A stretch of 64,000 bases of DNA, from positions 1 through 64,000 of the forward strand of contig NZ_DRFV01000002.1 of assembly GCF_011050365.1 (NCBI RefSeq), read 5' to 3'. Below, piece after piece: positions 6,781 to 54,584 of this stretch (position 1 is the first letter of the stretch; each line of letters begins with the position of its first letter). The notes beneath the pieces are model-generated. The model worked only from the letters and a program-made list of their open reading frames with translations. It was not told where the DNA came from and did not search any database. The position numbers and the translations under genes were made by a program. The stretch comes from Pseudohongiella sp. (GTDB taxonomy: Bacteria > Pseudomonadota > Gammaproteobacteria > Pseudomonadales > Pseudohongiellaceae).

Positions 6781-7737
6781 ATGGTTTTGCGCATAACTAC
6801 TTTGCTTTTAACGCTCTTTGTTTCCGTCTTTATCCAGGCAGCTCCTGACAATTTTGATCGAGCGAAGGTCGAGCTTCGCCAGTTCGTTTACCATGACCGC
6901 AATACCGAGGGAGAGTTCTATTGTGGCTGCAAGTTCGACTGGGTGGGTGTATCAGGGGGACGGGTGGACTTACCATCATGCGGTTACCAGGTCCGAGCAC
7001 AAGAGAACCGAGCCCAGCGTATCGAGTGGGAACATATACTCCCTGCTCACTCAATCGGCCAGGCTCGTCAATGTTGGCAGGATGGGGGAAGAGCCAACTG
7101 TAACCGCACCGACCCCGTGTTCAACGTCATGGAAGCAGATATGCACAATCTGACCGCTGCCCTGGGCGAGGTCAACGCTGACCGCTCCAATTACCGATTC
7201 AGCGTTTTGCCGGGCGAACCCTATCGCCATGGGTTATGTGACGTCAAAGTAAGCTTTGATCAACGTTCTGTTGAACCCCGCGATGAAATAAAAGGACGGA
7301 TTGCCCGAGTCTATTTCTATATGCATGATCGATATGACCTGACGATGGCACGTGCGCAGCAGCAACTAATGATTGCCTGGAACCGTCAATATCCTGTGTC
7401 TGATTGGGAGCGCGAGCGCGATCAGCGCATAGGAGCGCGTATGGGTCACAATAACCCCTTTGTCACAGGTGAGCGGCAATGGACACTGGGTCACACCAAT
7501 ACCGCTGACGGAGTCGTGTCATGGCTTCCTGATGACCATCCAGTGATGAGCCCCCAACAAGCACCATCTCAAACGACCAACTCTGGAATCATTCGTGGGA
7601 ACCGCAACAGCAGGATTTATCATTTACCACAAGGCTGCCCCAGCTATAACGCCATGGCTGATCACAATATCGTGGAGTTTCGCACTGAACAGGAAGCTGC
7701 TGGCGCTGGTTATCGAAAGGCTGGTAACTGCCGGTAA
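6781..7737 (+). CDS. Secreted endonuclease I (EndA/NucM family) with C-terminal Ada-like metal-binding domain
   Basis: A 318-residue exported nuclease. Residues 1-20 are a signal peptide ending QAAPD. The Endonuclease_1 domain follows (about 25-210), with the His-Me finger signature RIEWEHILPAHSIG (His around residue 81) and the diagnostic HNLTAALGEVNADRSNYRFS, plus cysteines in YCGCKFDW and SCGYQV as in secreted EndA/Vvn enzymes. These cleave DNA non-specifically in the periplasm or outside the cell with Mg2+ or Ca2+. A C-terminal extension (about 272-318, GNRNSRIYHLPQGCPSYNAM then AAGAGYRKAGNC) resembles the Ada metal-binding fold attached to several secreted nucleases. It sits alone in the island. 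Confidence 0.9.
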   Translation: MVLRITTLLLTLFVSVFIQAAPDNFDRAKVELRQFVYHDRNTEGEFYCGCKFDWVGVSGGRVDLPSCGYQVRAQENRAQRIEWEHILPAHSIGQARQCWQDGGRANCNRTDPVFNVMEADMHNLTAALGEVNADRSNYRFSVLPGEPYRHGLCDVKVSFDQRSVEPRDEIKGRIARVYFYMHDRYDLTMARAQQQLMIAWNRQYPVSDWERERDQRIGARMGHNNPFVTGERQWTLGHTNTADGVVSWLPDDHPVMSPQQAPSQTTNSGIIRGNRNSRIYHLPQGCPSYNAMADHNIVEFRTEQEAAGAGYRKAGNCR

Positions 7738-7818
7738 AGCATGAAGGTCATAGTTCCCTGCATGCCCACTTATGCTGTGCTATACCCATAGTATCGATGC
7801 TACTATCAGGGAGATGTT

Positions 7819-8001
7819 ATGGACGACTCACTACCGGAAAAGATCATGGTCGTGGATGAAGGCTTTTATTGGGTCAAATACCGGCCTGGTAGTCGCTGGG
7901 AGCCGGCAGAATTTGATGGCATACTTTGGGATATTGGTGATGGCAGCGGCTATGACCTGTATTTGGTAGCAACGTCCAGAATACCGGAGCCGGCTCATTA
8001 A
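7819..8001 (+). CDS. Small acidic hypothetical protein, 60 aa
   Basis: ATG at 7819 is preceded by a good GGGAG ribosome-binding site (about 7809), which favours this frame over an overlapping longer one starting at 7772. The protein (MDDSLPEKIMVVDEGFYWVK, then YRPGSRWEPAEFDGILWDIG) is acidic and aromatic-rich. It has the flavour of small phage-type proteins that carry a Tyr/Trp-rich single beta-sheet. Function unknown. Confidence 0.5.
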   Translation: MDDSLPEKIMVVDEGFYWVKYRPGSRWEPAEFDGILWDIGDGSGYDLYLVATSRIPEPAH

Positions 8002-8102
8002 TGCTGCTTTGGTCGCCCCAAAATTTCAAAGTGGGATAAAAACATCCGTACCTATAGACCCATAAGTAATACTGGCTATTTAGTCAATTTATTGGAGGTC
8101 CT

Positions 8103-8741
8103 TTGATAGAAGCACTAAACCAAATATCCCTGCTAGTCGGCATATGGATAGCGATTTACGGAATCAACGCCTGGAAGAACGAGCACATCGGTCGGCGAAA
8201 TATTGACTTAGCAGAAGACTCCTTGGCTTTATTCTACGAGGCAGCTGATGCAATAAGATTTATCCGTCAGCCATTTAGCTTTCCATCTGAGACAGATAGC
8301 GTAGTAAGGAACGACAACGAATCCGAGAGAGAGTTTGACGCAAGAAAGAATGCCTCTGTTGTGTTTATACGATTCAACCAACACCAGGAACTTTTCAGCA
8401 AAATATACGCAACTCGGTATCGATTTATGGCACGCATCGGAAAAGACAAGGCCAAGCCGTTTGAGGATTTAAATAAAATTTCGAAGGAAATAAAAACAGC
8501 AGCTCGAGTTTTAGCCAGATACTGGCCGCGAGATTATTTTCGAACTGAGGCCCAATTAGACGATCACCAAGGGCGGGTCGACAAATACGAATCTGTCTTC
8601 TGGGATCACGGTGACGATGATGATATCAATACTCGGCTGGATAACATTATCACCGAGATGGAGATTATATCAAAAACTGTGATTGACCAAAACAACGGAC
8701 TCTTGACGTTTCTGACAAGAACATATGGTAAAGCACCCTAA
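8103..8741 (+). CDS. Membrane-anchored hypothetical protein, 212 aa
   Basis: A TTG start at 8103 follows a strong GGAGG (about 8094) at proper spacing. One N-terminal transmembrane helix (about residues 7-24, QISLLVGIWIAIYGINAW) is followed by a long cytoplasmic helical domain rich in charged residues (RRNIDLAEDSLALFYEAADA; EIKTAARVLARYWPRDYF). No known domain is recognised. It heads a run of four same-strand genes (8103-10961), and its layout (single N-terminal helix plus about 170 helical residues) is mirrored by the last gene of that run, suggesting a functional or ancestral relationship. Composition is AT-rich like the island. Confidence 0.68.
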   Translation: MIEALNQISLLVGIWIAIYGINAWKNEHIGRRNIDLAEDSLALFYEAADAIRFIRQPFSFPSETDSVVRNDNESEREFDARKNASVVFIRFNQHQELFSKIYATRYRFMARIGKDKAKPFEDLNKISKEIKTAARVLARYWPRDYFRTEAQLDDHQGRVDKYESVFWDHGDDDDINTRLDNIITEMEIISKTVIDQNNGLLTFLTRTYGKAP

Positions 8742-8774
8742 AAAAGACCTCATTGCGAACGGCGGAGTAGTCGA

Positions 8775-9494
8775 TTGAACACAACAACCGGAGGTCATAT
8801 AAAGGAGTACCGACATCTTATGAGTACAGTGCTGGATCATTTCCAGCACATAAGATTCGATAAGAAACATGCATGGCATCGCTCCATGATTCTCCTTTAT
8901 TGCACAATTATCGAATACGCAGACTCTATCTATGTACTCGTTACCCAGCAAAATAGTGTATCGCTTCCGATTGTTACTCGTTCCATACTCGAAGCATTTG
9001 TAGATCTGATGAATTTATGTGACGACCCGAGCTATGGGAATCACTTGCAAGCTGATGATATTAAAGAGTGGTTGCGCGTTGCTAAGGAGGCCCAGACAAC
9101 TTCCAATCCTTATCTTAAAGAAATGGTAGACGCTGACGGTTTTGACGTACAGGTAATTCAATGGGAAGATGAATTCAAAGCGTTGGGTCACGAGGGATTT
9201 CGCCCGTTAAATCAGATCACAAAGTTCGAGAAGGCCGGTTTAGCAAACGAATACAGGTCCGTATACAACTTCCTTTGCGTACACACACATAACAATTTGA
9301 GGGCGTTACATGAACGCCACATTGAGATCAGTGACGATAAGAGAGATTTTAATATAGTCATTTTTCATGACTTTGATCCCAAACTAATCGAGCAGTACAT
9401 CCCGTTGGTCTGCAGATGCATAATTGAATGCAGCATAAAAGTGCATGCGACTATTGGAACTGGTTATGAGGACGCATTCAAGACCGATCAATAG
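8775..9494 (+). CDS. DUF5677-like protein
   Basis: A 239-residue (or 224-residue) helical protein. Two starts are possible: TTG at 8775, or ATG at 8820 downstream of both a GGAGGT and an AAGGAG; I regard 8820 as equally likely. The segment with IIEYADSIYVLVTQQNSVSL and PIVTRSILEAFVDLMNL is the hallmark of DUF5677 proteins, all-helical proteins of unknown function found scattered in accessory regions, some near defence genes. A conserved-looking NFLCVHTHNNLRALHERH motif follows, with two histidines that could bind metal. It lies 34 bp after the membrane-anchored gene, so the two are probably cotranscribed. Confidence 0.7.
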   Translation: MNTTTGGHIKEYRHLMSTVLDHFQHIRFDKKHAWHRSMILLYCTIIEYADSIYVLVTQQNSVSLPIVTRSILEAFVDLMNLCDDPSYGNHLQADDIKEWLRVAKEAQTTSNPYLKEMVDADGFDVQVIQWEDEFKALGHEGFRPLNQITKFEKAGLANEYRSVYNFLCVHTHNNLRALHERHIEISDDKRDFNIVIFHDFDPKLIEQYIPLVCRCIIECSIKVHATIGTGYEDAFKTDQ

Positions 9495-9601
9495 AGCGTT
9501 GGGTCCACCTTATGGAAACAGGCAGCGACCACAATAGCTACAAGGCAGACCTATGCTTTTAGACGCCAATTCAGGGACTCATTGAGAACAGCAATTGCAA
9601 T

Positions 9602-10282
9602 ATGCATGAACCATTTCTCACCAGCATGGAAACTTCTATGGAAATTGATGAATTCGAGGTGACGCGAATCCATGGAATGAATGCGTTTCGGAGCCTGCAA
9701 TTAGCTTATAAGGTATGGAAAGAATACGATGTGTGCAAGAAACGATCTAACGATGAGACATGGGAGGAAAGGTATCAATCAGCTGATACGACCGGTACTC
9801 GTTTACAGCTACTCGAAACAGAACTCTTTTCTCATCTGTCAGCGGTCATCGTTCTCTACCAAGCTTCGATGGAAGCAATACTCTCCAATGCTGTATCAGA
9901 GAACCAGTCGATAAGCGAAGTGGTTCGAGGAAAGAGCTTTAAAAAAGCCTGGGTCGCAACGCTGAAAGCTATAAATGAGTCTGATGAAGAGTTCATCGAA
10001 TACGAACGTGACTTTTATACTGGCATGCGAATACCTCTGACTCACCTCCACCCAAATACAGACGAAAAGCTACGGAAAGTGCGATTGATCAACTTTGAAA
10101 GGGTTTATAACGGAGTCCGATTTGGGTGGTGGGCTCATGTGAGGATTCTCAGAGGTATGGGACTTTCATCTGGTGACATTGATTCGAACTGGTCATACAT
10201 ATGCAGAGGAGTAAATCTGCCACCAGATCTTTTTCCCGAGAGCCATCCGAATATCAGGCTTGCTTCCGAGAAAAATGACTAG
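9602..10282 (+). CDS. Hypothetical helical protein, 226 aa
   Basis: ATG at 9602; an internal ATG at 9629 is an alternative. The sequence is mostly helical, with an HLSAVIVLYQASMEAILSNA core and a LTHLHPNTDEKLRKVRLINF segment. The pattern of an N-terminal helix bundle followed by a short polar tail resembles abortive-infection or HEPN-like helical proteins, but I do not see a clean R-x4-6-H HEPN motif, so no assignment is made. It follows the DUF5677 gene by about 110 bp on the same strand and may belong to the same unit. Confidence 0.62.
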   Translation: MHEPFLTSMETSMEIDEFEVTRIHGMNAFRSLQLAYKVWKEYDVCKKRSNDETWEERYQSADTTGTRLQLLETELFSHLSAVIVLYQASMEAILSNAVSENQSISEVVRGKSFKKAWVATLKAINESDEEFIEYERDFYTGMRIPLTHLHPNTDEKLRKVRLINFERVYNGVRFGWWAHVRILRGMGLSSGDIDSNWSYICRGVNLPPDLFPESHPNIRLASEKND

Positions 10283-46097: not shown

Positions 46098-47921
46098 TTA
46101 CCCGGAAGGCAAGGGCGTTTTCATGGCATCCTGTAGCGCTTGCCGAAGCACGTAGTAGTCCACCGGTTTCACCAGCACAACGAAGCCGGCTTCACGAATT
46201 TCATTCAGTCTGGCTGAGGACACATTACCCGTGGCCAGCAAAATTCGCTGTCTGGGCAAATGCTGCTGAAGATTGCGCGCAATATCCAGACCGGAGACCT
46301 CGTCGTGCAACATGTCATCCAGCAGCACCAGCTCAAAGTCGTTGTCACTGGCCAGCAACCGCTCCAGCTGCTCCGGTGATGCTGCACTGACCACGTGACA
46401 GCCCCAGCTTCGCAACAATCCGGTCACCGCATCGAGTATGGCCGCATCATCATCAACCACCAACGCTCTGACCCCCGCCAGGTCGCCCTCGGGCTGCTCC
46501 GCCCGGGACAGCATCTGCGCCTCGTCAGCCTGGTCAACAACAGCACGGCTTGGCACATGCACACTGAACGTGCTACCGACCCCCGGCTCCGACTTCAGTG
46601 TCAGTTTGATCTCCAGCAATGCCGCTATGCGTTTGACGATCGCCAAGCCCAGACCTGAGCCTTTACCTTTGGATCGTGCCTTGTTGCTGACCTGGTAATA
46701 GTCACGGAAGATCCGCTGCTGATCATCTGCCGCAATACCGATACCGGTATCGATGACTGAAATATTAAGGCCACTACGCTGTCGCCTGGCCTGCACGGAT
46801 ACCGAGCCTTTGTCGGTATAACGCACCGCGTTAATGATCAGGTTACGGAACATTCGCTCCAGTAACAGCATATCGGAGCGAACTGTCACCGGAGATACAA
46901 AAATGTGCAACTCTACCTTCTTGGCCTGGGCTTCCGGCATGACGCCATCAACGATATTCTTCAGCAATGCATCAAGTCTGAACTCGGTGTGGTCAGCAGT
47001 AATGACCCCGGCATCAAATTTGGAAAGATCCAGCAGGCTGTTGAATTGTTCATGCAGCAGGCTGCTGGTCTCGTCAATCTTGTCGATGAGCTCGCGCGTG
47101 CGCTCATCGCCTCCCATGTGCCGCAGACTGCCAAGGAACAGAGTCATGGCGTGCAGCGGCTGGCGCAGATCATGACTGGCGGCGGCCATAAAGCGATTTT
47201 TCTCTTCATTGGCCTTACGCGCAACATTCAGGGCTTTTTCAATAATGACTTTGTCTTTTTCCAGCTTCAGGTTCTGCTCACGGTTCTCGTCACGAATGCG
47301 AATCGACTCGGCAAAGACATCAGCATTGCGACGCCCGAACTGCATCAGCAGAATCATGATCGCCAACATGGCAACACTGATTTCGATATCCGCCGGACTG
47401 CGGAATACTGACAGAAATACAATGCCCTGACCCAGGTTGGTCAGCAGCAACAGCGGAAAGCCGCGATAATGAATCGATGAGTTGATGGTCGTGCCTATGG
47501 CGTAAATAAGAGTGAGCAATGTGACCGCAAAAACCGCGCGGTCAGAACCCTGCAGACACACCCACCAGTAACCCGAGCCCACTGTGATGGTGCTCAGTAG
47601 CGAACTGACGTACAACAGCAGCTCATTACGGTACAGCTCCGACACGGAGGTGAACACCAGACGTTTCTCCACGTAGCGACACACCAGTACCCGGCACAGC
47701 GCCAGCAGTATGATCAACCCCACCCATATCAGCAGGTTGACCGGCGGCACGTCCTGCCACAGACCGTAGATATAAATCAGTCCGCTGCCAATCACCAGCC
47801 ACAAGGCTTTGTGGGACTGGAACACGCGCACGCGCTGTGACTCCGACGTCAGGCTCAGCAGTTGCGGTTCCAGGGCCTGCTCATAACGGGAGAAACCGGT
47901 AATGCGATCCAGTACACTCAT
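46098..47921 (-). CDS. Membrane hybrid histidine kinase with C-terminal receiver
   Basis: A 607-residue kinase. About six transmembrane helices (residues 38-195) form an undefined sensor, followed by a coiled linker, HisKA (AAASHDLRQPLHAM, phosphorylated His250), HATPase (NLIINAVRYTDKGSVSVQAR; DTGIGI; GKGSGLGLAIV) and a receiver domain (about 485-600; VVDDDAAIL, phospho-acceptor in LVLLDDMLHD). The HDLRQPLHA type of H-box is typical of kinases that pair with NarL/LuxR-type regulators. Its ATG overlaps the stop of the 1916-aa enzyme by 4 bp. The regulator at 53665 is the likely partner. Confidence 0.92.
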   Translation of the reverse strand: MSVLDRITGFSRYEQALEPQLLSLTSESQRVRVFQSHKALWLVIGSGLIYIYGLWQDVPPVNLLIWVGLIILLALCRVLVCRYVEKRLVFTSVSELYRNELLLYVSSLLSTITVGSGYWWVCLQGSDRAVFAVTLLTLIYAIGTTINSSIHYRGFPLLLLTNLGQGIVFLSVFRSPADIEISVAMLAIMILLMQFGRRNADVFAESIRIRDENREQNLKLEKDKVIIEKALNVARKANEEKNRFMAAASHDLRQPLHAMTLFLGSLRHMGGDERTRELIDKIDETSSLLHEQFNSLLDLSKFDAGVITADHTEFRLDALLKNIVDGVMPEAQAKKVELHIFVSPVTVRSDMLLLERMFRNLIINAVRYTDKGSVSVQARRQRSGLNISVIDTGIGIAADDQQRIFRDYYQVSNKARSKGKGSGLGLAIVKRIAALLEIKLTLKSEPGVGSTFSVHVPSRAVVDQADEAQMLSRAEQPEGDLAGVRALVVDDDAAILDAVTGLLRSWGCHVVSAASPEQLERLLASDNDFELVLLDDMLHDEVSGLDIARNLQQHLPRQRILLATGNVSSARLNEIREAGFVVLVKPVDYYVLRQALQDAMKTPLPSG

Positions 47922-50900
47922 ACGGTCTCCTCGTTTCCATCGCTATTGGCATACCAGACAGGGCCTGCCGGTTGCGCGTCGGGGCCAAACGCCTGCATGC
48001 GCAAACGCCTTGCCGGTGCCGGCTCCAGATCCAGTCTGACAAAGTGCTGTTTGGCTGAGCTCAGCAGGATCTGCCGTCCCCTGACATTAATGTGTGTCAC
48101 CTGTGCCATGCCGGTATTGTGCGCCAGCAGCGAAACGTCAAACTCATCTTGCCAGTCGTAATCGTTGATGTTGGCGTTGACGAAGGCCATGGGCGCATGC
48201 AATCCGGATGCACAGACCTGGGTAAGCTGCACCGATTTTTCATCAGCCCCGCCCGGCGTCCTGGCCCCGGTGCTGGCAGTGAGCCGAAGTTGGGCAAAGC
48301 AGGAAAAATGCGGATCACCACACAACCAGATAATTTGCTTGCCTAACGCGTGAGTATGCAGCAATTCAATCATCTGCACGATGAATCCCGGGTAGGCCAG
48401 CAAACCATCCTGATAGACTGCCGTCGCCGGGTTTGCCCGAACCGCGCGCGAAACAGGCGACAGCGGCGACCCGGTAGCGAGAAACAGCACCGGACTATCC
48501 TTGTGTGCCTGTAACCATTGCGTAAAGCCCTGTATCTGATCCGCCTGCAACAGATCATTGCTGCCGTCGTCACCGGACTGCCGGTGCAGACGAGTATCAA
48601 AAACAAAGAACGGATAACCCGCGCTGTCAAACTGGTGCCAAAGGCGCAGCGCACGGTCGTCCCATTCGGTGTGGTGATGTGTCTGATACAGCCACGCCAT
48701 CCGCCGCGCATAATCATAACCCCGGGCAGCAGCATCCGCCTCACCACGCCAGTTATCACGATACTCATGATCGTCTACCGCGAAATAGGTCGGTAGATGT
48801 GACATCAGACGCTTTGCCTCGGAACTGCCAAAAACCATGCGGTAGGGATTACGGAATTTTTCATAGTGCGCCCCGGGGTCAAACAGATCAGCAGTGGCAT
48901 CAGCATATATCTGGTCACCCAGCAGGATCATACAGTCCGCGCCACGCAAACCTTCGGCCGGGTTGTCGCTGACATGCGCCAGCATACCGTTGAAAATGCT
49001 CATCGCCCGACTGCGTTCAAACGGCAGGCCCGGGTGCAGACACGAACCCGCGAGCACGGTCAGCGCGGGCAAGGCGTCAGCCGGTTCAGGATTGGCCAGC
49101 AGGCGCTCTACCCAGGGTAATCCACGCCAGCGCAGCAACACCTGCTCATTGCCAGCATCTGTCGCCGGCTCACAAGCGGAGTGGTTCGCATAGTTAAGAC
49201 TGAGCCGGTAGTCAGACGTCTGTGTTGAATCAAAGACGAAGTCATAAAGCCAGAATTCCTGCTGCCAATGGCCCGGCGAATCTGCTCCGCCGGGTTCGTT
49301 GGCCGGCAGCGTCGTCGATACCACCGGCGTCAGATGCTCACCGGAAACGGCGGTACTGGTAATGGTCAGGCCCGTTGCCGCCAACGCGGTAAAGTCCTGC
49401 GCCTCGACCCACAGCCTGATACGCAACTGTCTGCCACCCGACGCTGTCGGGTGGCAGACAGGTCTGGAAACAATCGGTCCCGTCAATGGTCTGGTCGGCA
49501 ACTGCGCCGGCGTGTTGCTGCCGCAGCGCCTGACAAATTCGGCGCGCTGTGCAGGTTCGCTGAATCGCCGCTCATAGTGTTGTTGCAATGCGTCATCATC
49601 AGCGGCGCAAAAGAACTCATGCAACCGCGGATACACATCGCTGTCAGCCGTTTTGCTGAAAATCATGTCCATGTGGCCATAGCCATCAAGCACATCAATC
49701 CAGACATTCTCCGCGGCATAGTCCAACGGACCCAATGCACCTGTCCGGTACTCTCCTGTCCGGTGCCTGTGCCGGAGCCGGGTCAACCGGTCAGCGGACT
49801 GCCGTGACGACTCCATATCAAATACAGTGTTGCGATTGCCATGCAGAAAATAGGTAGGGAATGTCCAGTGCCGGGCAAAATTTTCCTCTCGCACATATTC
49901 GTTGGCGCCGTCATGGTTGGAGAGCAGGCCCCGGGTCAGGGAAAAATACACCTGCTGCATAACACCGATCGGCACCGGCCCGATCATGCCGGCGAACTGG
50001 TAACGGGTGTCATCAGCGATATTGGCATTGTGCCACTGACGCCCCCAGAAAATGGTATAGCGGGTATAAATGGACTGGGCGAAACCGGGACCTCTCCAGT
50101 CGCGAAATCCGTTCCAGGCCGACCACTGTTGGCGTTCGTCTGCCGTCATCGCTAGTGCCGCCAGCCGGTCATAAAGCGTCTCCATCAACTCCGGCCCACG
50201 ATACGGCATCGGTTCAATCACCCGGATCGGCTCCAGATTCTTGACCATTGCCCACAAATTGGCCCTGGCCCGATTTTCGCCCGACGTCGTCAGCCATGGT
50301 GTCACCGCGTGTGGCACCAGCGATGCCAGCATGCTTTTGTCACTGTTATCATCAGCGCCAGTACCGTCCTGATTCGATGCCGGGCGATTCAGTTTTCCCG
50401 CCAGTACAGCCATGGCGACAGCGCCAGCACCAATGCAATGCGAAAACACGTGAATGCCACGCTGGTGTTGCCCGGCGATGTCCCGGTTTACTTCCGTATA
50501 GGCAGTATGTATGGCCCATGGCACGTCGTTTAGCGCGATACTGTCCCAGGTATGTTCTGGTGTTACGTTGCGAACATAGTTGGCACTCGCGCGGTGATCA
50601 AGAATCCAGACATCATAATTACGTGCCAGAAAATACTGCACAAAATTGCAGGCAATGGTGTCAGTCCAGAATACCCGGCTGCTGTGTGCCAGACCATGGA
50701 CAAGCATTAACGATTTACGCTCCGCGACATTACCGGTTGCCGGCTGATAACGCACCAGACGGCTCAACTTTTCAGCATTCTCCGATTCCGGTACCGGGCA
50801 CTCGTAAACTTCCTTTGGCAGGCTGCTGTATTGCCCGCCAGCACCGTAGGCCATGGTGTCGGGTGGTTCGAACAAACGCCCCTGGCGGTCATCACTTTCC

Positions 50901-53668
50901 AGCACACTCTTGAGTGCGAAATGGCTGTACGATGGCGCCGCAAATGACCAGAAATGTGTGTGCATGATCATGCGCAGAAAGTACATACCCAGGCCACCGG
51001 CAGCGAGCAAGGTCGCCGTTGAGTCCGGCGACCCGGTAATCTGCAGTGGCGTCGAGCCGTGCGTTACCCTCACCGCATCCAGCTCCAGTTCTGCGCCCAG
51101 TTTATGGTTATCGGCGGTGCGAAACTCCACTGGCAGGACCATCAGGGCTCTGAGCAGATCGTTCAGGCCCAGACCGTAACCCAGGGTCTTGCGGCCGCTG
51201 ATGCGTAGACCGTCAGAGCTGCAGAAGTCATAGCGCAGATAACGTCTTTGCGCCTGTAGTTGCGCAATGCGCCAGAATACTTTGGCCTGGGTGTACCACG
51301 GCGAAGAATTGGCGGGCACTACCCGGCTTGAACGCACCCGGCGGGTTTTTGCTGGCAACACCCACCCGGCCAGCGCATCCGGGATTTTGACCAACGCATC
51401 CATGCTCCGGTATTGCAGATAACGCAGTATCGCACTGATCGTGCGCCACCCGCCGATCAGATGACCAACTGATCCGATGGCGCCCAGTGTGACCTGACCA
51501 TCAAGCTGAAGCAGTGGTATCAGGTTCCGGTCCGGCGTCGTCAGCACCCCGCCCGCTGAATCCGCAGACAAAGTTGCCTGCGCCCGCAGCGGTGATTGCG
51601 GCTTCTGCAGCCACTGCTCCATGGTGTTGTCGCCGTCAAACCGGAACCGGGCATCAAGAACCAGTGCCTTGCTGTCCGCAGGCAGATCCACAGCCGGCAG
51701 GTGTTGCCGGAAAAACGACAACACATCAGCGCCTGCATTGACACGGCGACTCCAAGGCAAGAACGACCGCTTGCCATGGTCCAGGTGCAGAACCAGGCGC
51801 TCATTGAACTCGGCGGACACCGCCTGCTCCGACGCTACCGGTACCGGGTGCATGCCACCACGCGGGATCTGGCGAAACGGCGCGCTGAGCACCGGCAGCG
51901 GCCGCGCGATCACGGCTGAAGCGTTGTTGCCGATTATGTCTGCCGCCAACCGGTAACACAGCGCCGCGATAGTAAGAAAAGGATTGGTGCCGATAGCACC
52001 CGGAATAATCGCCCCATCCAGCACGTACAGGTCATCATAAACGCCGGTGGCACTGGCGTTGCTGAACACCTGCCCGCGGGTATTGACCACGCCCCCGGCG
52101 ATGTCGGCAGCCATGCAGCACCCTCCCAGCGGATGCACTGACACTAATTGTCCGGCAATATCACCGGCCCCTTCCACGATACCGGCAAATTCCGGTGGTA
52201 GCGGTTGTGACAGAATATTGGGGGAGAAAACGCCGCCGTCAAAAGTTGTCGATTCATCGCTGCGCAGCTTCAGGTCCATGCGCGCAAAATAGTCCGCCTC
52301 TTCCGGTCGCTGCCAGACCGGTTGCAGTCTGTCGTTACTGAAACTCAGCTTGCCACTGCTGGCATCATGCCCCATTAGCAAAAGCGCCTGACTGTGTTCA
52401 GCCAGTGAATCGGAAATCGCCAGCACATCATGACCGGGATGAGCACGGTGCCACGCCGATTCGGCACCATCAGCAAAGCGTCGCAACAGATTCTGACTGA
52501 CCAGCAGCTCCTGCCAGACCTGACGCAAGGGATAGGGGATGACGGCATCTTCCAGCGTAAAACTTTCGCCCTCAGGGCCGCCCTGCAGCGCGACGCTGGC
52601 CATGCCCATGATCGTCGGGCCGGGCTCGGTTGCCGGCGGATGCTGACCCGGCGGCGACGCAACGGCACCCACTTTCCCGGACTGCCCGACGCTGAATACC
52701 AGACCATCACCGTTGGTGGAAAACCCGCAGCCAAGCCCGGGCGACAGACCCAGGTCATGCGCCTGCTCAGATCGCATCAGTATTTCAGTGCTGCCGAGTG
52801 TGCCCGCCCCCAGAATCACTGTCCTGCACTGCACCTGTACCACTTCGTCAGGCCGCGCCGCCGGTGCACAGGTGACGAGCCAGCCGTCCCCGATTTTGCT
52901 CAGCGACCTGACGATGACACCGGCGTAGATCTCGGCGCCAAGCTGCCGTATCAAGGGCCAGGCGTTCATGTTCAATGAACCTTTTGCACCCGAGTGACAG
53001 CCAATCACACAGTTGCCGCACAGGTTGCACGGCCCGTGATCAGCGCTATGATCAGTGGGACCGGAGAAATTGACCGTCAAGGGTGCCGCAGTTGCGGTGG
53101 CGTCCAGTGCCGAGGCGGTGGCAGCCATGGCACGATAGCGGCCGAAGCGCTCGGGCTGCGGATGCCTGTTAACGCCCAACAGTTGCTCGATCTTCACCAT
53201 TGCCGGCAACAGTTGCTCGCTCCAGTTGTCGTGACCTGTGCCCTGCGGCCAGGATTCAAACACGGCAGGGTCAGGGCGCGCTGCGACGTTGGCGTTGACC
53301 AGCGATGTACCACCGACCCCTCGCCCGGTAATGGTGACGACGCCTTTGCCGGCTCGCACGTCCCACAGTGCATTCGGGTTGACCGTGTCAGTCCCGGCAT
53401 AACCCGGCATGTCGGCCATCGACCTGGGGAAATCATCAGGCAGGTATTCCGCGCCCCGTTCAAATACCCAGACACGCTGCCGCTCCGCCCCGGGTAAATC
53501 TGCCTGCGCCTCCATCAGCGCCAGCGACGCCATAGCAGCTCCATAGCCGGAGCCCACCACCAGAATATCTGTGCTCAGGCAGAATGTCCGTTGCCGGGTT
53601 TTGTCGAGAAATGGGTAGCCTTGCTCGGCCAGTAGAGTCTCAATCGGCCTGGACAGCCAACTGGTCAC
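47918..53668 (-). CDS. Giant fusion: GMC oxidoreductase, alpha/beta hydrolase and PhoD-like phosphoesterase
   Basis: A 1916-residue protein. Residues about 30-580 form a cholesterol-oxidase-like GMC flavoprotein: FAD loop ILVVGSGYGAAMASLALM, a CxxCxxCxxxC set (Cys214, 217, 220, 224 in CNLCGNCVIGC), SVHPLGGCCM and DGAIIPGAIGTNPFLTIAAL. About 600-960 is a linker domain of unknown type. About 985-1350 is an alpha/beta hydrolase: MLVHGLAHSSRVFW, DVWILDHRASANY, elbow VFSHCIGAGA (Cys1078 at the nucleophile position) and a late His in DVLDGYGHMDMIF. About 1560-1850 is PhoD-like: LLGDQIYAD (1584), VDDHEYRDNW and CGDPHFSCF. No signal peptide is visible. GMC-hydrolase fusions are known; the third domain and the flanking two-component genes (4-bp overlaps on both sides) are unusual. 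Substrates are probably sterol or lipid esters. Confidence 0.9.
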   Translation of the reverse strand: MTSWLSRPIETLLAEQGYPFLDKTRQRTFCLSTDILVVGSGYGAAMASLALMEAQADLPGAERQRVWVFERGAEYLPDDFPRSMADMPGYAGTDTVNPNALWDVRAGKGVVTITGRGVGGTSLVNANVAARPDPAVFESWPQGTGHDNWSEQLLPAMVKIEQLLGVNRHPQPERFGRYRAMAATASALDATATAAPLTVNFSGPTDHSADHGPCNLCGNCVIGCHSGAKGSLNMNAWPLIRQLGAEIYAGVIVRSLSKIGDGWLVTCAPAARPDEVVQVQCRTVILGAGTLGSTEILMRSEQAHDLGLSPGLGCGFSTNGDGLVFSVGQSGKVGAVASPPGQHPPATEPGPTIMGMASVALQGGPEGESFTLEDAVIPYPLRQVWQELLVSQNLLRRFADGAESAWHRAHPGHDVLAISDSLAEHSQALLLMGHDASSGKLSFSNDRLQPVWQRPEEADYFARMDLKLRSDESTTFDGGVFSPNILSQPLPPEFAGIVEGAGDIAGQLVSVHPLGGCCMAADIAGGVVNTRGQVFSNASATGVYDDLYVLDGAIIPGAIGTNPFLTIAALCYRLAADIIGNNASAVIARPLPVLSAPFRQIPRGGMHPVPVASEQAVSAEFNERLVLHLDHGKRSFLPWSRRVNAGADVLSFFRQHLPAVDLPADSKALVLDARFRFDGDNTMEQWLQKPQSPLRAQATLSADSAGGVLTTPDRNLIPLLQLDGQVTLGAIGSVGHLIGGWRTISAILRYLQYRSMDALVKIPDALAGWVLPAKTRRVRSSRVVPANSSPWYTQAKVFWRIAQLQAQRRYLRYDFCSSDGLRISGRKTLGYGLGLNDLLRALMVLPVEFRTADNHKLGAELELDAVRVTHGSTPLQITGSPDSTATLLAAGGLGMYFLRMIMHTHFWSFAAPSYSHFALKSVLESDDRQGRLFEPPDTMAYGAGGQYSSLPKEVYECPVPESENAEKLSRLVRYQPATGNVAERKSLMLVHGLAHSSRVFWTDTIACNFVQYFLARNYDVWILDHRASANYVRNVTPEHTWDSIALNDVPWAIHTAYTEVNRDIAGQHQRGIHVFSHCIGAGAVAMAVLAGKLNRPASNQDGTGADDNSDKSMLASLVPHAVTPWLTTSGENRARANLWAMVKNLEPIRVIEPMPYRGPELMETLYDRLAALAMTADERQQWSAWNGFRDWRGPGFAQSIYTRYTIFWGRQWHNANIADDTRYQFAGMIGPVPIGVMQQVYFSLTRGLLSNHDGANEYVREENFARHWTFPTYFLHGNRNTVFDMESSRQSADRLTRLRHRHRTGEYRTGALGPLDYAAENVWIDVLDGYGHMDMIFSKTADSDVYPRLHEFFCAADDDALQQHYERRFSEPAQRAEFVRRCGSNTPAQLPTRPLTGPIVSRPVCHPTASGGRQLRIRLWVEAQDFTALAATGLTITSTAVSGEHLTPVVSTTLPANEPGGADSPGHWQQEFWLYDFVFDSTQTSDYRLSLNYANHSACEPATDAGNEQVLLRWRGLPWVERLLANPEPADALPALTVLAGSCLHPGLPFERSRAMSIFNGMLAHVSDNPAEGLRGADCMILLGDQIYADATADLFDPGAHYEKFRNPYRMVFGSSEAKRLMSHLPTYFAVDDHEYRDNWRGEADAAARGYDYARRMAWLYQTHHHTEWDDRALRLWHQFDSAGYPFFVFDTRLHRQSGDDGSNDLLQADQIQGFTQWLQAHKDSPVLFLATGSPLSPVSRAVRANPATAVYQDGLLAYPGFIVQMIELLHTHALGKQIIWLCGDPHFSCFAQLRLTASTGARTPGGADEKSVQLTQVCASGLHAPMAFVNANINDYDWQDEFDVSLLAHNTGMAQVTHINVRGRQILLSSAKQHFVRLDLEPAPARRLRMQAFGPDAQPAGPVWYANSDGNEETV

Positions 53669-54372
53669 GACAGCAGCGCCTCACCATATTGTGCGAGATG
53701 ACCCGGCTGGATACCGAGTTTGGCGGCGGCATAGACCGCCTCGGTACGGTTCTGCACTCCCAGTGTTCTGAATGCCACCGATAAATGTGCCTTCACGGTG
53801 TGGTCGGAGATCTCCAGCTCTTTGGCGATTACCTTGTTGGACTTGCCCTGCACCGCTTTCATCAGCACCTCGAACTGGCGGCGCGACAATCGCATGGGCA
53901 TATCGCTTTGGCTGCCCGGCGCCTGCCCGGCTTCCGGCCGGCTCGCAACCGGCAAGGGCCCCAGCGCAATGCGGGGCAGATAGGTACCACCGGCAAGCAC
54001 CAGTTTCAACGCCGAAATCAGCTCTTCACGCGAGGACGACTTGGGAATGAACCCGGCGGCGCCGTGCTCAACCAGATTGCGGATGATACGCGCATCCTCT
54101 TCTCCGGACAGCACTACCAGCGTGGCTGACTCAAAGCGTTCACGACACTTGATCAGCGCCTCCAGTCCGTTGACGCCGGGGAGATAATAATCCAGCAGGA
54201 TCAGATCGATGGGGGCATCATGGTCGGCAAAATCCAGCGCTGCATCCAGACTGCCCGCTTCAAAATACTGCACTTTGTCATCCAGGACCGGCAATAGATA
54301 TTTCAGCCCTTCACGAAACAGATCATGGTCATCAACCAGCAAAATGCGCACGTGCGCTCTCCTTTCCGCCAT
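53665..54372 (-). CDS. NarL/LuxR-type response regulator
   Basis: A 235-residue regulator. The receiver domain (about 8-125) has acidic residues in LLVDDHDLF and the phospho-acceptor Asp61 in LILLDYYLPGVNG. The LuxR-type helix-turn-helix (about 165-225) reads LSRRQFEVLMKAVQGKSNKV, then AKELEISDHTVKAHL. It is the first gene of a three-gene unit with the giant enzyme and the hybrid kinase, and the stop overlaps the enzyme's ATG by 4 bp. It probably controls its own operon, so the 210-bp region to lptM (divergent) should carry its binding sites. Confidence 0.93.
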   Translation of the reverse strand: MAERRAHVRILLVDDHDLFREGLKYLLPVLDDKVQYFEAGSLDAALDFADHDAPIDLILLDYYLPGVNGLEALIKCRERFESATLVVLSGEEDARIIRNLVEHGAAGFIPKSSSREELISALKLVLAGGTYLPRIALGPLPVASRPEAGQAPGSQSDMPMRLSRRQFEVLMKAVQGKSNKVIAKELEISDHTVKAHLSVAFRTLGVQNRTEAVYAAAKLGIQPGHLAQYGEALLS

Positions 54373-54584
54373 AGCTTTATACCCGGTGCGCCCTAGAATA
54401 CCCTTGAATTGAATTTCAAGTACACCCTGACTGTCTCATATCAGGCGCCGTCGGGCGACTAGCCGGATGGCTAGGTTGCTGCATTGGCGCATGGAAATTA
54501 GCCGCCCCACCCCGAACACGGTATAATCGCGCCATTATTAACAGGGCCCCGCCATTAACAGGCCCAGAGCTCGGGATTCTACCA

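Follow-up and report, generated by a model that had tools for sequence, protein, structure and literature searches.

The window analysed here, a 64,000-nucleotide stretch from the marine bacterium Pseudohongiella sp. (contig NZ_DRFV01000002.1, positions 1 to 64,000), carries on its minus strand a three-gene unit in which a response regulator, a fusion of three enzymes and a hybrid histidine kinase follow one another (Table 1). The sequence-only reading of this DNA had described the genes as joined by 4-bp stop/start overlaps, and we recovered all three open reading frames (ORFs) with both junctions as proposed: the regulator stop and the GTG start of the enzyme share GTGA (53665-53668), and the enzyme stop and the ATG of the kinase share ATGA (47918-47921). 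From these overlaps and the conserved gene order, the operon-like unit is probably a true operon. It is flanked by genes that we take, from the window translations, to be argH and lysA-dapF; GC content ranges from 0.55 to 0.59 in the three genes and averages 0.543 over the window, and the closest named relatives are a SAT189 gammaproteobacterial metagenome-assembled genome, UBA2675 and Pseudohongiella sp. The coupling of the fusion enzyme to signalling genes is wider and stronger than first proposed, and the exchange of the kinase for a cyclase in other lineages is its most surprising point.

Table 1. Genes, domains and sites of the unit, in window positions
Feature	Position	Strand	Details
Response regulator gene	53665-54372	-	235 aa, ATG start, first gene of the unit
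Fusion enzyme gene, GMC + alpha/beta hydrolase + PhoD	47918-53668	-	1916 aa, GTG start
Hybrid histidine kinase gene	46098-47921	-	607 aa, ATG start
GMC (FAD, flavin adenine dinucleotide) oxidoreductase domain	51869-53581	-	aa ~30-600; PF00732, PF05199
CxxCxxCxxxC motif, Cys214-x2-Cys217-x2-Cys220-x3-Cys224	52997-53029	-	in the GMC domain; ferredoxin-like, putative 4Fe-4S site; codons checked
Linker	50789-51868	-	aa ~601-960; two beta-rich parts and long helices
Alpha/beta hydrolase domain, acid-lipase-like	49529-50788	-	aa ~961-1380
PhoD-like metallophosphoesterase domain	48149-49078	-	aa ~1531-1840; GSC, GDQIYAD and DDHE motifs
Kinase N-terminal helical membrane domain, unnamed sensor type	47322-47816	-	aa ~36-200
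Imperfect palindrome TAGCCATCCGGCTA(G), candidate operator	54459-54473	.	87-101 bp upstream of the regulator start

Pfam models place GMC at residues 108-301 and 510-570 of the window enzyme and PhoD at residues 1576-1796, above the gathering cut-off. The three-enzyme fusion is real: 40 single-ORF fusions, the window protein included, could be aligned, and nearly all catalytic residues are kept. Separate coding of the domains, concealed by a frameshift, is ruled out by single open frames of 1893-1923 aa in relatives from the same genus. Ten other genomes of the genus carry the enzyme, 52-74% identical over its full length: in seven it is one open frame, in two (G312 and G314) it ends at contig edges, and in one (G044) the frame is broken. 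Fusion hosts include Pseudohongiella, Granulosicoccaceae, Hahella, Halieaceae, Cellvibrionaceae, Acidovorax, Ramlibacter, Caenimonas, Ensifer, Rhizobium, Bradyrhizobium, Ruegeria, Chelatococcus and others. The fusion is rare in evenly sampled genomes. With the own genome counted each time, 12 of 293 genomes match the enzyme within the order (tblastn, 1e-50), 13 of 369 within the class and 12 of 398 within the phylum (profile, 1e-60 for the last two), and many of these matches are GMC-hydrolase or GMC proteins without PhoD. By hydropathy, no export signal is apparent, the N-terminus lacking a strongly hydrophobic stretch (signal-peptide programs were not used); the peak 19-residue hydrophobicity falls in the hydrolase core. 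Neither the fusion nor its signalling link was found described among the matches listed from the open subset of PubMed Central full text, and the matches listed for GMC with patatin and ADC, or for GMC-PhoD fusions, held nothing relevant. A phage or defence origin was considered for the fusion protein and rejected, as scans of it returned 0 PHROGs families and, at E<=0.001, 0 PADLOC families.

To survey the neighbours of the enzyme, our own models of the kinase, the regulator and the enzyme domains were scored against every ORF in 96 loci (L016-L110 and the window): 48 fusion or near-complete loci, 47 controls (GMC loci from the same searches without fused PhoD) and one fragmented locus, L042, placed in neither group. 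Removing a duplicate genome (L037, the same as L019) and four contig-truncated loci (L021, L038, L050 and L055) left 43 fusion loci; these still contain the frame-broken L019, two loci that encode PhoD as a separate ORF (L046 and L098), and the very close species L016 and L032. A kinase was called above 130 bits to our kinase-core model, built from eight seeds (the window and seven loci). A hybrid kinase lies within 1 kb of the fusion in 31/43 loci, 22 of which also have a NarL-type regulator within 3.2 kb. None of the 47 controls has a kinase within 1 kb, 37 of them having at least 1 kb on both sides; in control L067 a weaker kinase match lies 202 bp away. Fisher's exact test gives p=1.2e-14 for this difference, a value that overstates the evidence, given the relatedness of the loci and the fact that most controls belong to other phyla. 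The 3.63-Mb own genome has 22 HisKA matches, and five other genomes have 20-115. Among the loci dropped, L021, L050 and L055 also adjoin a kinase, and L038 has the regulator, its contig ending inside the enzyme. The kinase stands downstream, upstream or divergent depending on lineage; the association is therefore not merely inherited synteny. Further genomes (G575, G559, G408, G454, G671, G766, G824 and others) were fetched later and stand outside the 43 and 47. The fusion again occurs with a kinase in G575, G559 and G408, the latter two also having a regulator; the stretch from G454 starts at a contig end.

In 10 of the 43 fusion loci (L027, L047, L048, L051, L054, L060, L061, L063, L072 and L100) a divergent gene for a cyclase of ~1350 aa replaces the kinase. 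All of these loci are alphaproteobacterial, and they make up 10 of the 11 loci named as such in the set. The two cyclase partners that were scanned carry Guanylate_cyc and AAA_16 domains, and a PDB search with the 1336-aa protein of L027 ranks the soluble adenylyl cyclase ADCY10 first (7.8e-26, two stretches). Weak PADLOC matches of the partner to Pycsar cyclases are taken as shared cyclase domains. A split version of the enzyme in G824 likewise has a divergent cyclase gene of ~1350 aa (L181 12386-16465). In L041 the kinase partner is fused to a receiver and an HD_5 domain and is divergent from the enzyme (7055-9901); its output is possibly cyclic di-GMP (c-di-GMP). Neither partner is present in two loci, L088 and L036, the contig of the latter breaking off after 841 bp on the downstream side, within an ORF that weakly resembles a kinase. 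With a signalling neighbour at 41/43 fusion loci, the outcome that would have refuted the sequence-only reading, homologues almost always lacking flanking regulators, is not what was seen. Strict coupling of the enzyme to signalling genes is supported and is kept far beyond the genus; against a strict link of kinase and enzyme, one genome of the genus has the regulatory pair without the enzyme (G224) and alphaproteobacteria use a cyclase. As a separate observation, the Granulosicoccaceae fusions of L034-L036 adjoin a similar divergent gene, located at about 8.5-9.8 kb of the loci, with DSBA and CMD domains in L034.

Within the genus, the enzyme is present in 11 of 15 genomes, each time with regulator and kinase homologues adjacent, the unit being split over contigs in G312 and G314. 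The regulator also comes first in the seven other cassettes of the genus that were read (L016-L019, L123-L125). Three genomes, G183, G315 and G316 (the last a draft, 85% complete), lack all three genes, and in them argH adjoins lysA. An unrooted tree groups G183 with the window and G311 and places G315 and G316 among carriers, which implies at least two losses of the whole unit or repeated gains. The window and G311 share 73% identity in the enzyme, 90% in the kinase and 94% in the regulator. A decaying cassette was seen in G044 (LSUCC0112, L019 6121-13353), where the frames of the enzyme N-terminus and the kinase, intact in other species, are broken and a stop falls in the regulator match.

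The GMC assignment of the first enzyme domain comes from GMC_oxred_N (PF00732, 61.2 bits, cut-off 23) and GMC_oxred_C (PF05199, 37.7 bits, cut-off 24.6). His512 and Asn562, presumably the GMC catalytic pair, are kept in 40/40 aligned fusions and align with the HPLGG and NP motifs of cholesterol oxidase. The proposed likeness to a cholesterol oxidase/esterase is borne out by the closest solved relatives and by an acid-lipase/cholesteryl-ester-hydrolase fold in the middle domain, but it does not extend to family membership: scores of 58-105 bits against cholesterol oxidase denote a distant relationship, and the curated NCBIfam model NF058674 gives 108.4 bits against a cut-off of 850. The four cysteines of the putative 4Fe-4S site are conserved in 40, 39, 40 and 40 of the 40 aligned fusions. 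The pattern used to scan contigs included three of the four, so their conservation in most loci is partly selected; all four are invariant in eight sequences found without a Cys-bearing search pattern. Pfam models of 4Fe-4S ferredoxins score over the motif, all below cut-off. Since the motif resembles an Fe-S site, the GMC domain probably acts as a dehydrogenase rather than as an oxidase. There is a precedent among GMC proteins: one report describes a catalytic subunit of FAD glucose dehydrogenase in which Cys212, Cys218 and Cys222 of a Cys-rich loop hold a 3Fe-4S cluster (PMC6719666). By analogy, this precedent suggests electron transfer onto a carrier rather than oxygen. In locus L025, a gene for a RoxA-like cytochrome c comes after the GMC-hydrolase gene.

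The linker that follows the GMC domain has no Pfam match at E<=1, and an AlphaFold2 model of the linker and hydrolase together (aa 575-1505) has a predicted local distance difference test score (pLDDT) of 81.9 and a predicted template modelling score (pTM) of 0.84. The hydrolase itself stays below the Pfam cut-off in the window protein (18.0 vs 25.8 bits); despite this score, profile searches and the predicted structure confirm its identity as an alpha/beta hydrolase. Gastric and lysosomal acid lipases are its top profile and fold matches (PDB 1hlg, 1k8q and 6v7n), with a Foldseek E of 8.0e-10 and a TM score of 0.61 by target length for 6v7n, and the structure matches share 12-13% identity. 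HMMER pairs the AHCMG of the fusion family with GHSQG of gastric lipase, which puts Cys1078 opposite the lipase serine; Cys1078 and His1332 are kept in 40/40 aligned fusions. The C-terminal PhoD domain scores 43.0 bits to PF09423 (cut-off 27) and its metal-site motifs are intact, with Cys1543 conserved in 40/40 fusions and Asp1585 in 39/40. PhoD is usually exported, and PhoD-type enzymes include phospholipase D-like members.

The window pair has the make-up of a two-component system. The kinase combines an N-terminal membrane sensor part with HisKA, HATPase_c and receiver domains, and the regulator is of NarL/LuxR type, with a receiver (PF00072, 68 bits) and a DNA-binding GerE helix-turn-helix (PF00196, 60.4 bits). 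The kinase core is NahK/ErcS-like and closest to model NF041832 (324.3 bits), short of the curated cut-off of 400, and the regulator is closest to the ErdR model NF041830 (125.3 bits), short of its cut-off of 390. Pseudomonas ErcS' and ErdR are tied to alcohol and acetate metabolism (PMC12997753). The kinase membrane domain shows four hydropathy peaks in the window and mostly 3-6 in full-length relatives, the exceptions being one in L021, two in L050 and none in L041; AlphaFold2 predicts six long helices (pLDDT 88.1). It has no Pfam family and no PDB fold match at E<=0.001. Granulosicoccaceae kinases have a homologous membrane domain (1e-44 to 1e-57), as do the kinases of divergently arranged loci (1e-16 to 1e-21), E-values that refer to a 35-sequence set, and weak links join the window type to the other group of fusion-linked kinases.

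The palindrome upstream of the regulator is a candidate operator. Its exact pattern recurs upstream of the regulator in 8/8 searched genomes of the genus with the enzyme, in a diverged version in G224, and is absent at the empty argH-lysA sites of G183, G315 and G316. The inverted repeat reads TAGCCA-TC-CGGCTA in the window and TACCCA-TT-TGGGTA in G204 and G309, where both arms co-vary; a single-arm change in G110 and G224 weakens the case for an operator. A scan of 12 genomes gave 26 strand matches, 11 of them regulator promoters, against 16 for a reversed-pattern control. In the two close species G309 and G204 a copy also lies upstream of an ORF that, by eye, resembles an extracytoplasmic function (ECF) sigma factor (L158 3019-4310, L160 3005-4296).

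The gene neighbourhoods of related enzymes bear on what the fusion might process. Separate metallophosphoesterase genes stand beside GMC(-hydrolase) genes in 20 of the 47 control loci, four of these being model seeds, which supports the view that the activities belong together. In a cyanobacterial cluster (L071 9935-16450), Pfam identifies genes for an alpha/beta hydrolase, a member of the ADC family and a patatin-like phospholipase alongside the GMC gene. Clusters of this kind look like an undescribed lipid pathway and support one linked pathway, naming no substrate. For two of the fused domains, the nearest characterised relatives use sterols, steryl esters or acylglycerols as substrates. 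Five more clusters, from cyanobacteria and Bacteroidota, resemble L071 by eye, small proteins included (L064, L076, L085, L090 and L070), the Bacteroidota ones adding a metallophosphoesterase.

The reading that we favour, tentatively and at somewhat less than an even chance, is that of a unit for lipid processing in the cytoplasm under the control of a signal. A membrane or lipid cue would be sensed by the kinase through its helical membrane part, and the phosphate would pass to the NarL-type regulator directly or via a separate histidine phosphotransfer (HPt) protein; the search for these domains gave a single receiver and no HPt domain. By binding the palindrome ahead of its own gene, the regulator would turn the unit on. 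Translational coupling would yield an enzyme that remains cytoplasmic: its PhoD domain would cleave a phosphate ester or diester, the acid-lipase-like domain with its cysteine nucleophile would form a thioester in removing or transferring an acyl group, and the GMC domain would oxidise an alcohol, its electrons leaving via an Fe-S cluster for a respiratory acceptor and not for O2. The fusion may hold lipophilic intermediates within one protein. That the activities act in sequence on one lipid, as the sequence-only reading had it, is plausible, and the kinase may, as it also proposed, sense the substrate or product; the substrate, the order of the steps and the direction of the signal link we infer.

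Several observations weigh against this reading. The complete genome G224 keeps the regulator and kinase, with a 1-bp overlap and at the same argH-lysA site, and has no enzyme (L121 9110-11664). The link to a two-component system is not universal, because alphaproteobacteria use the cyclase, and L088 is a true exception with neither partner. Six class-sample GMC-hydrolase loci without fused PhoD (L149-L154) include two with a kinase within 1 kb, so that the 47-locus control is not absolute; no kinase was seen in the stretches shown of the other four. Since the two in question, from G671 and G766, combine a GMC-hydrolase, a different metallophosphoesterase, a NarL regulator and a hybrid kinase (L152 4500-12624, L153 6718-14787), the kinase goes with the enzyme set and not with the fusion as such. 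In the hydrolase, the classical triad aspartate is not conserved, the candidate Asp1284 being present in 25/40 fusions. Outside regulator promoters the palindrome is no commoner than its control (15 matches against 16), and a palindrome regulon was rejected, since at the 14 other places examined the only genomes with neighbouring genes in common are two pairs, G204 with G309 and G044 with G313. The word 'lipid', finally, is suggested by distant relatives and cluster context.

Other explanations account for part of the same evidence. The enzyme may make or remove the small molecule that its partner senses, with exchangeable outputs in transcription, cyclic AMP and possibly c-di-GMP, a possibility that we regard as doubtful yet worth keeping in view. 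It fits a constant enzyme beside a varying partner, be it the kinase with a NarL regulator, a cyclase like soluble adenylyl cyclase or an HD_5 kinase, and a kinase membrane domain that stays recognisable across distant loci; simple regulation of a costly enzyme would give the same pattern, however, and the two-component genes of G224 persist without the enzyme. That persistence, together with the faster divergence of the enzyme than of its regulators between the window and G311, is what would be expected if the two-component system had a wider task of its own and the enzyme were one passenger or target among others. We consider this improbable in view of the kinase and enzyme occurring together at 31/43 loci, in many families and in different gene orders, and of the three genomes of the genus in which all three genes are missing at once.

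The chemistry of the middle domain invites a further alternative: with its cysteine-nucleophile domain acting as an acyltransferase, the protein would make a special lipid instead of breaking one down. PHA (polyhydroxyalkanoate) synthases use cysteine nucleophiles, the replacement of serine by cysteine at the nucleophile position is invariant in the aligned fusions, acetyltransferases 2vat and 2vav are among the structure matches, and no export signal is seen by hydropathy; the top structure matches are lipases, however, and the PhoD domain and the patatin clusters point to breakdown, so that we hold biosynthesis unlikely. A chance neighbourhood or an assembly artefact deserves next to no credence, given the gene order repeated in independent genomes of the genus and the contrast in nearby kinases between fusion loci and controls.

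A broader interpretation, for which our confidence is low, makes the fusion enzyme the core of an undescribed lipid-metabolite signalling module that makes or removes a lipid-derived cue while lineages swap its readers: a hybrid kinase with a new membrane sensor and a NarL regulator, a soluble-adenylyl-cyclase-like protein, or an HD-domain hybrid. If this were true, one polypeptide would unite a 4Fe-4S GMC dehydrogenase and an acid lipase with a cysteine nucleophile. It is uncommon for an enzyme fusion to keep a signalling neighbour in different proteobacterial classes even as the chemistry of the signalling is exchanged, and because the partners are exchanged across hosts, the direction of control can be tested by genetics in many of them. 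The locus further draws attention to a kinase membrane sensor that has no name, to what is probably an Fe-S type of GMC enzyme and to an acid-lipase fold whose nucleophile is cysteine.

Each part of the unit has a known counterpart from which it departs. The N-terminal domain is closest to cholesterol oxidase (PDB 4u2l and 1coy), its top PDB and NCBIfam match, with which it shares the FAD, HPLGG and NP motifs; unlike cholesterol oxidase, the window protein has the four-Cys motif and two further fused enzymes. With FAD glucose dehydrogenase (PDB 6a2u) it has in common a Cys-rich loop at similar residue numbers, which in the dehydrogenase carries an Fe-S cluster that exports electrons (PMC6719666); the dehydrogenase differs in having cysteines at 212, 213, 218 and 222, three of them ligands, and its profile match to the window domain is a weak, C-terminal one. 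The fold and profile of the middle domain are those of gastric and lysosomal acid lipase, a cholesteryl ester hydrolase, but all 40 fusions have cysteine at the position of its serine, and the domain is part of a fusion in which no export signal is apparent. The last domain resembles PhoD alkaline phosphatase/phosphodiesterase (PDB 2yeq) in its Pfam score and metal-site motifs, but lies inside a larger protein that shows no export signal. In the regulatory genes, the nearest curated models of the kinase core and the regulator are the Pseudomonas NahK/ErcS' kinases and ErdR, from which the window kinase is set apart by its unnamed helical membrane part at the N-terminus. The alphaproteobacterial partner, which lies outside the window, recalls ADCY10 and differs from it in being bacterial and transcribed divergently from the enzyme gene.

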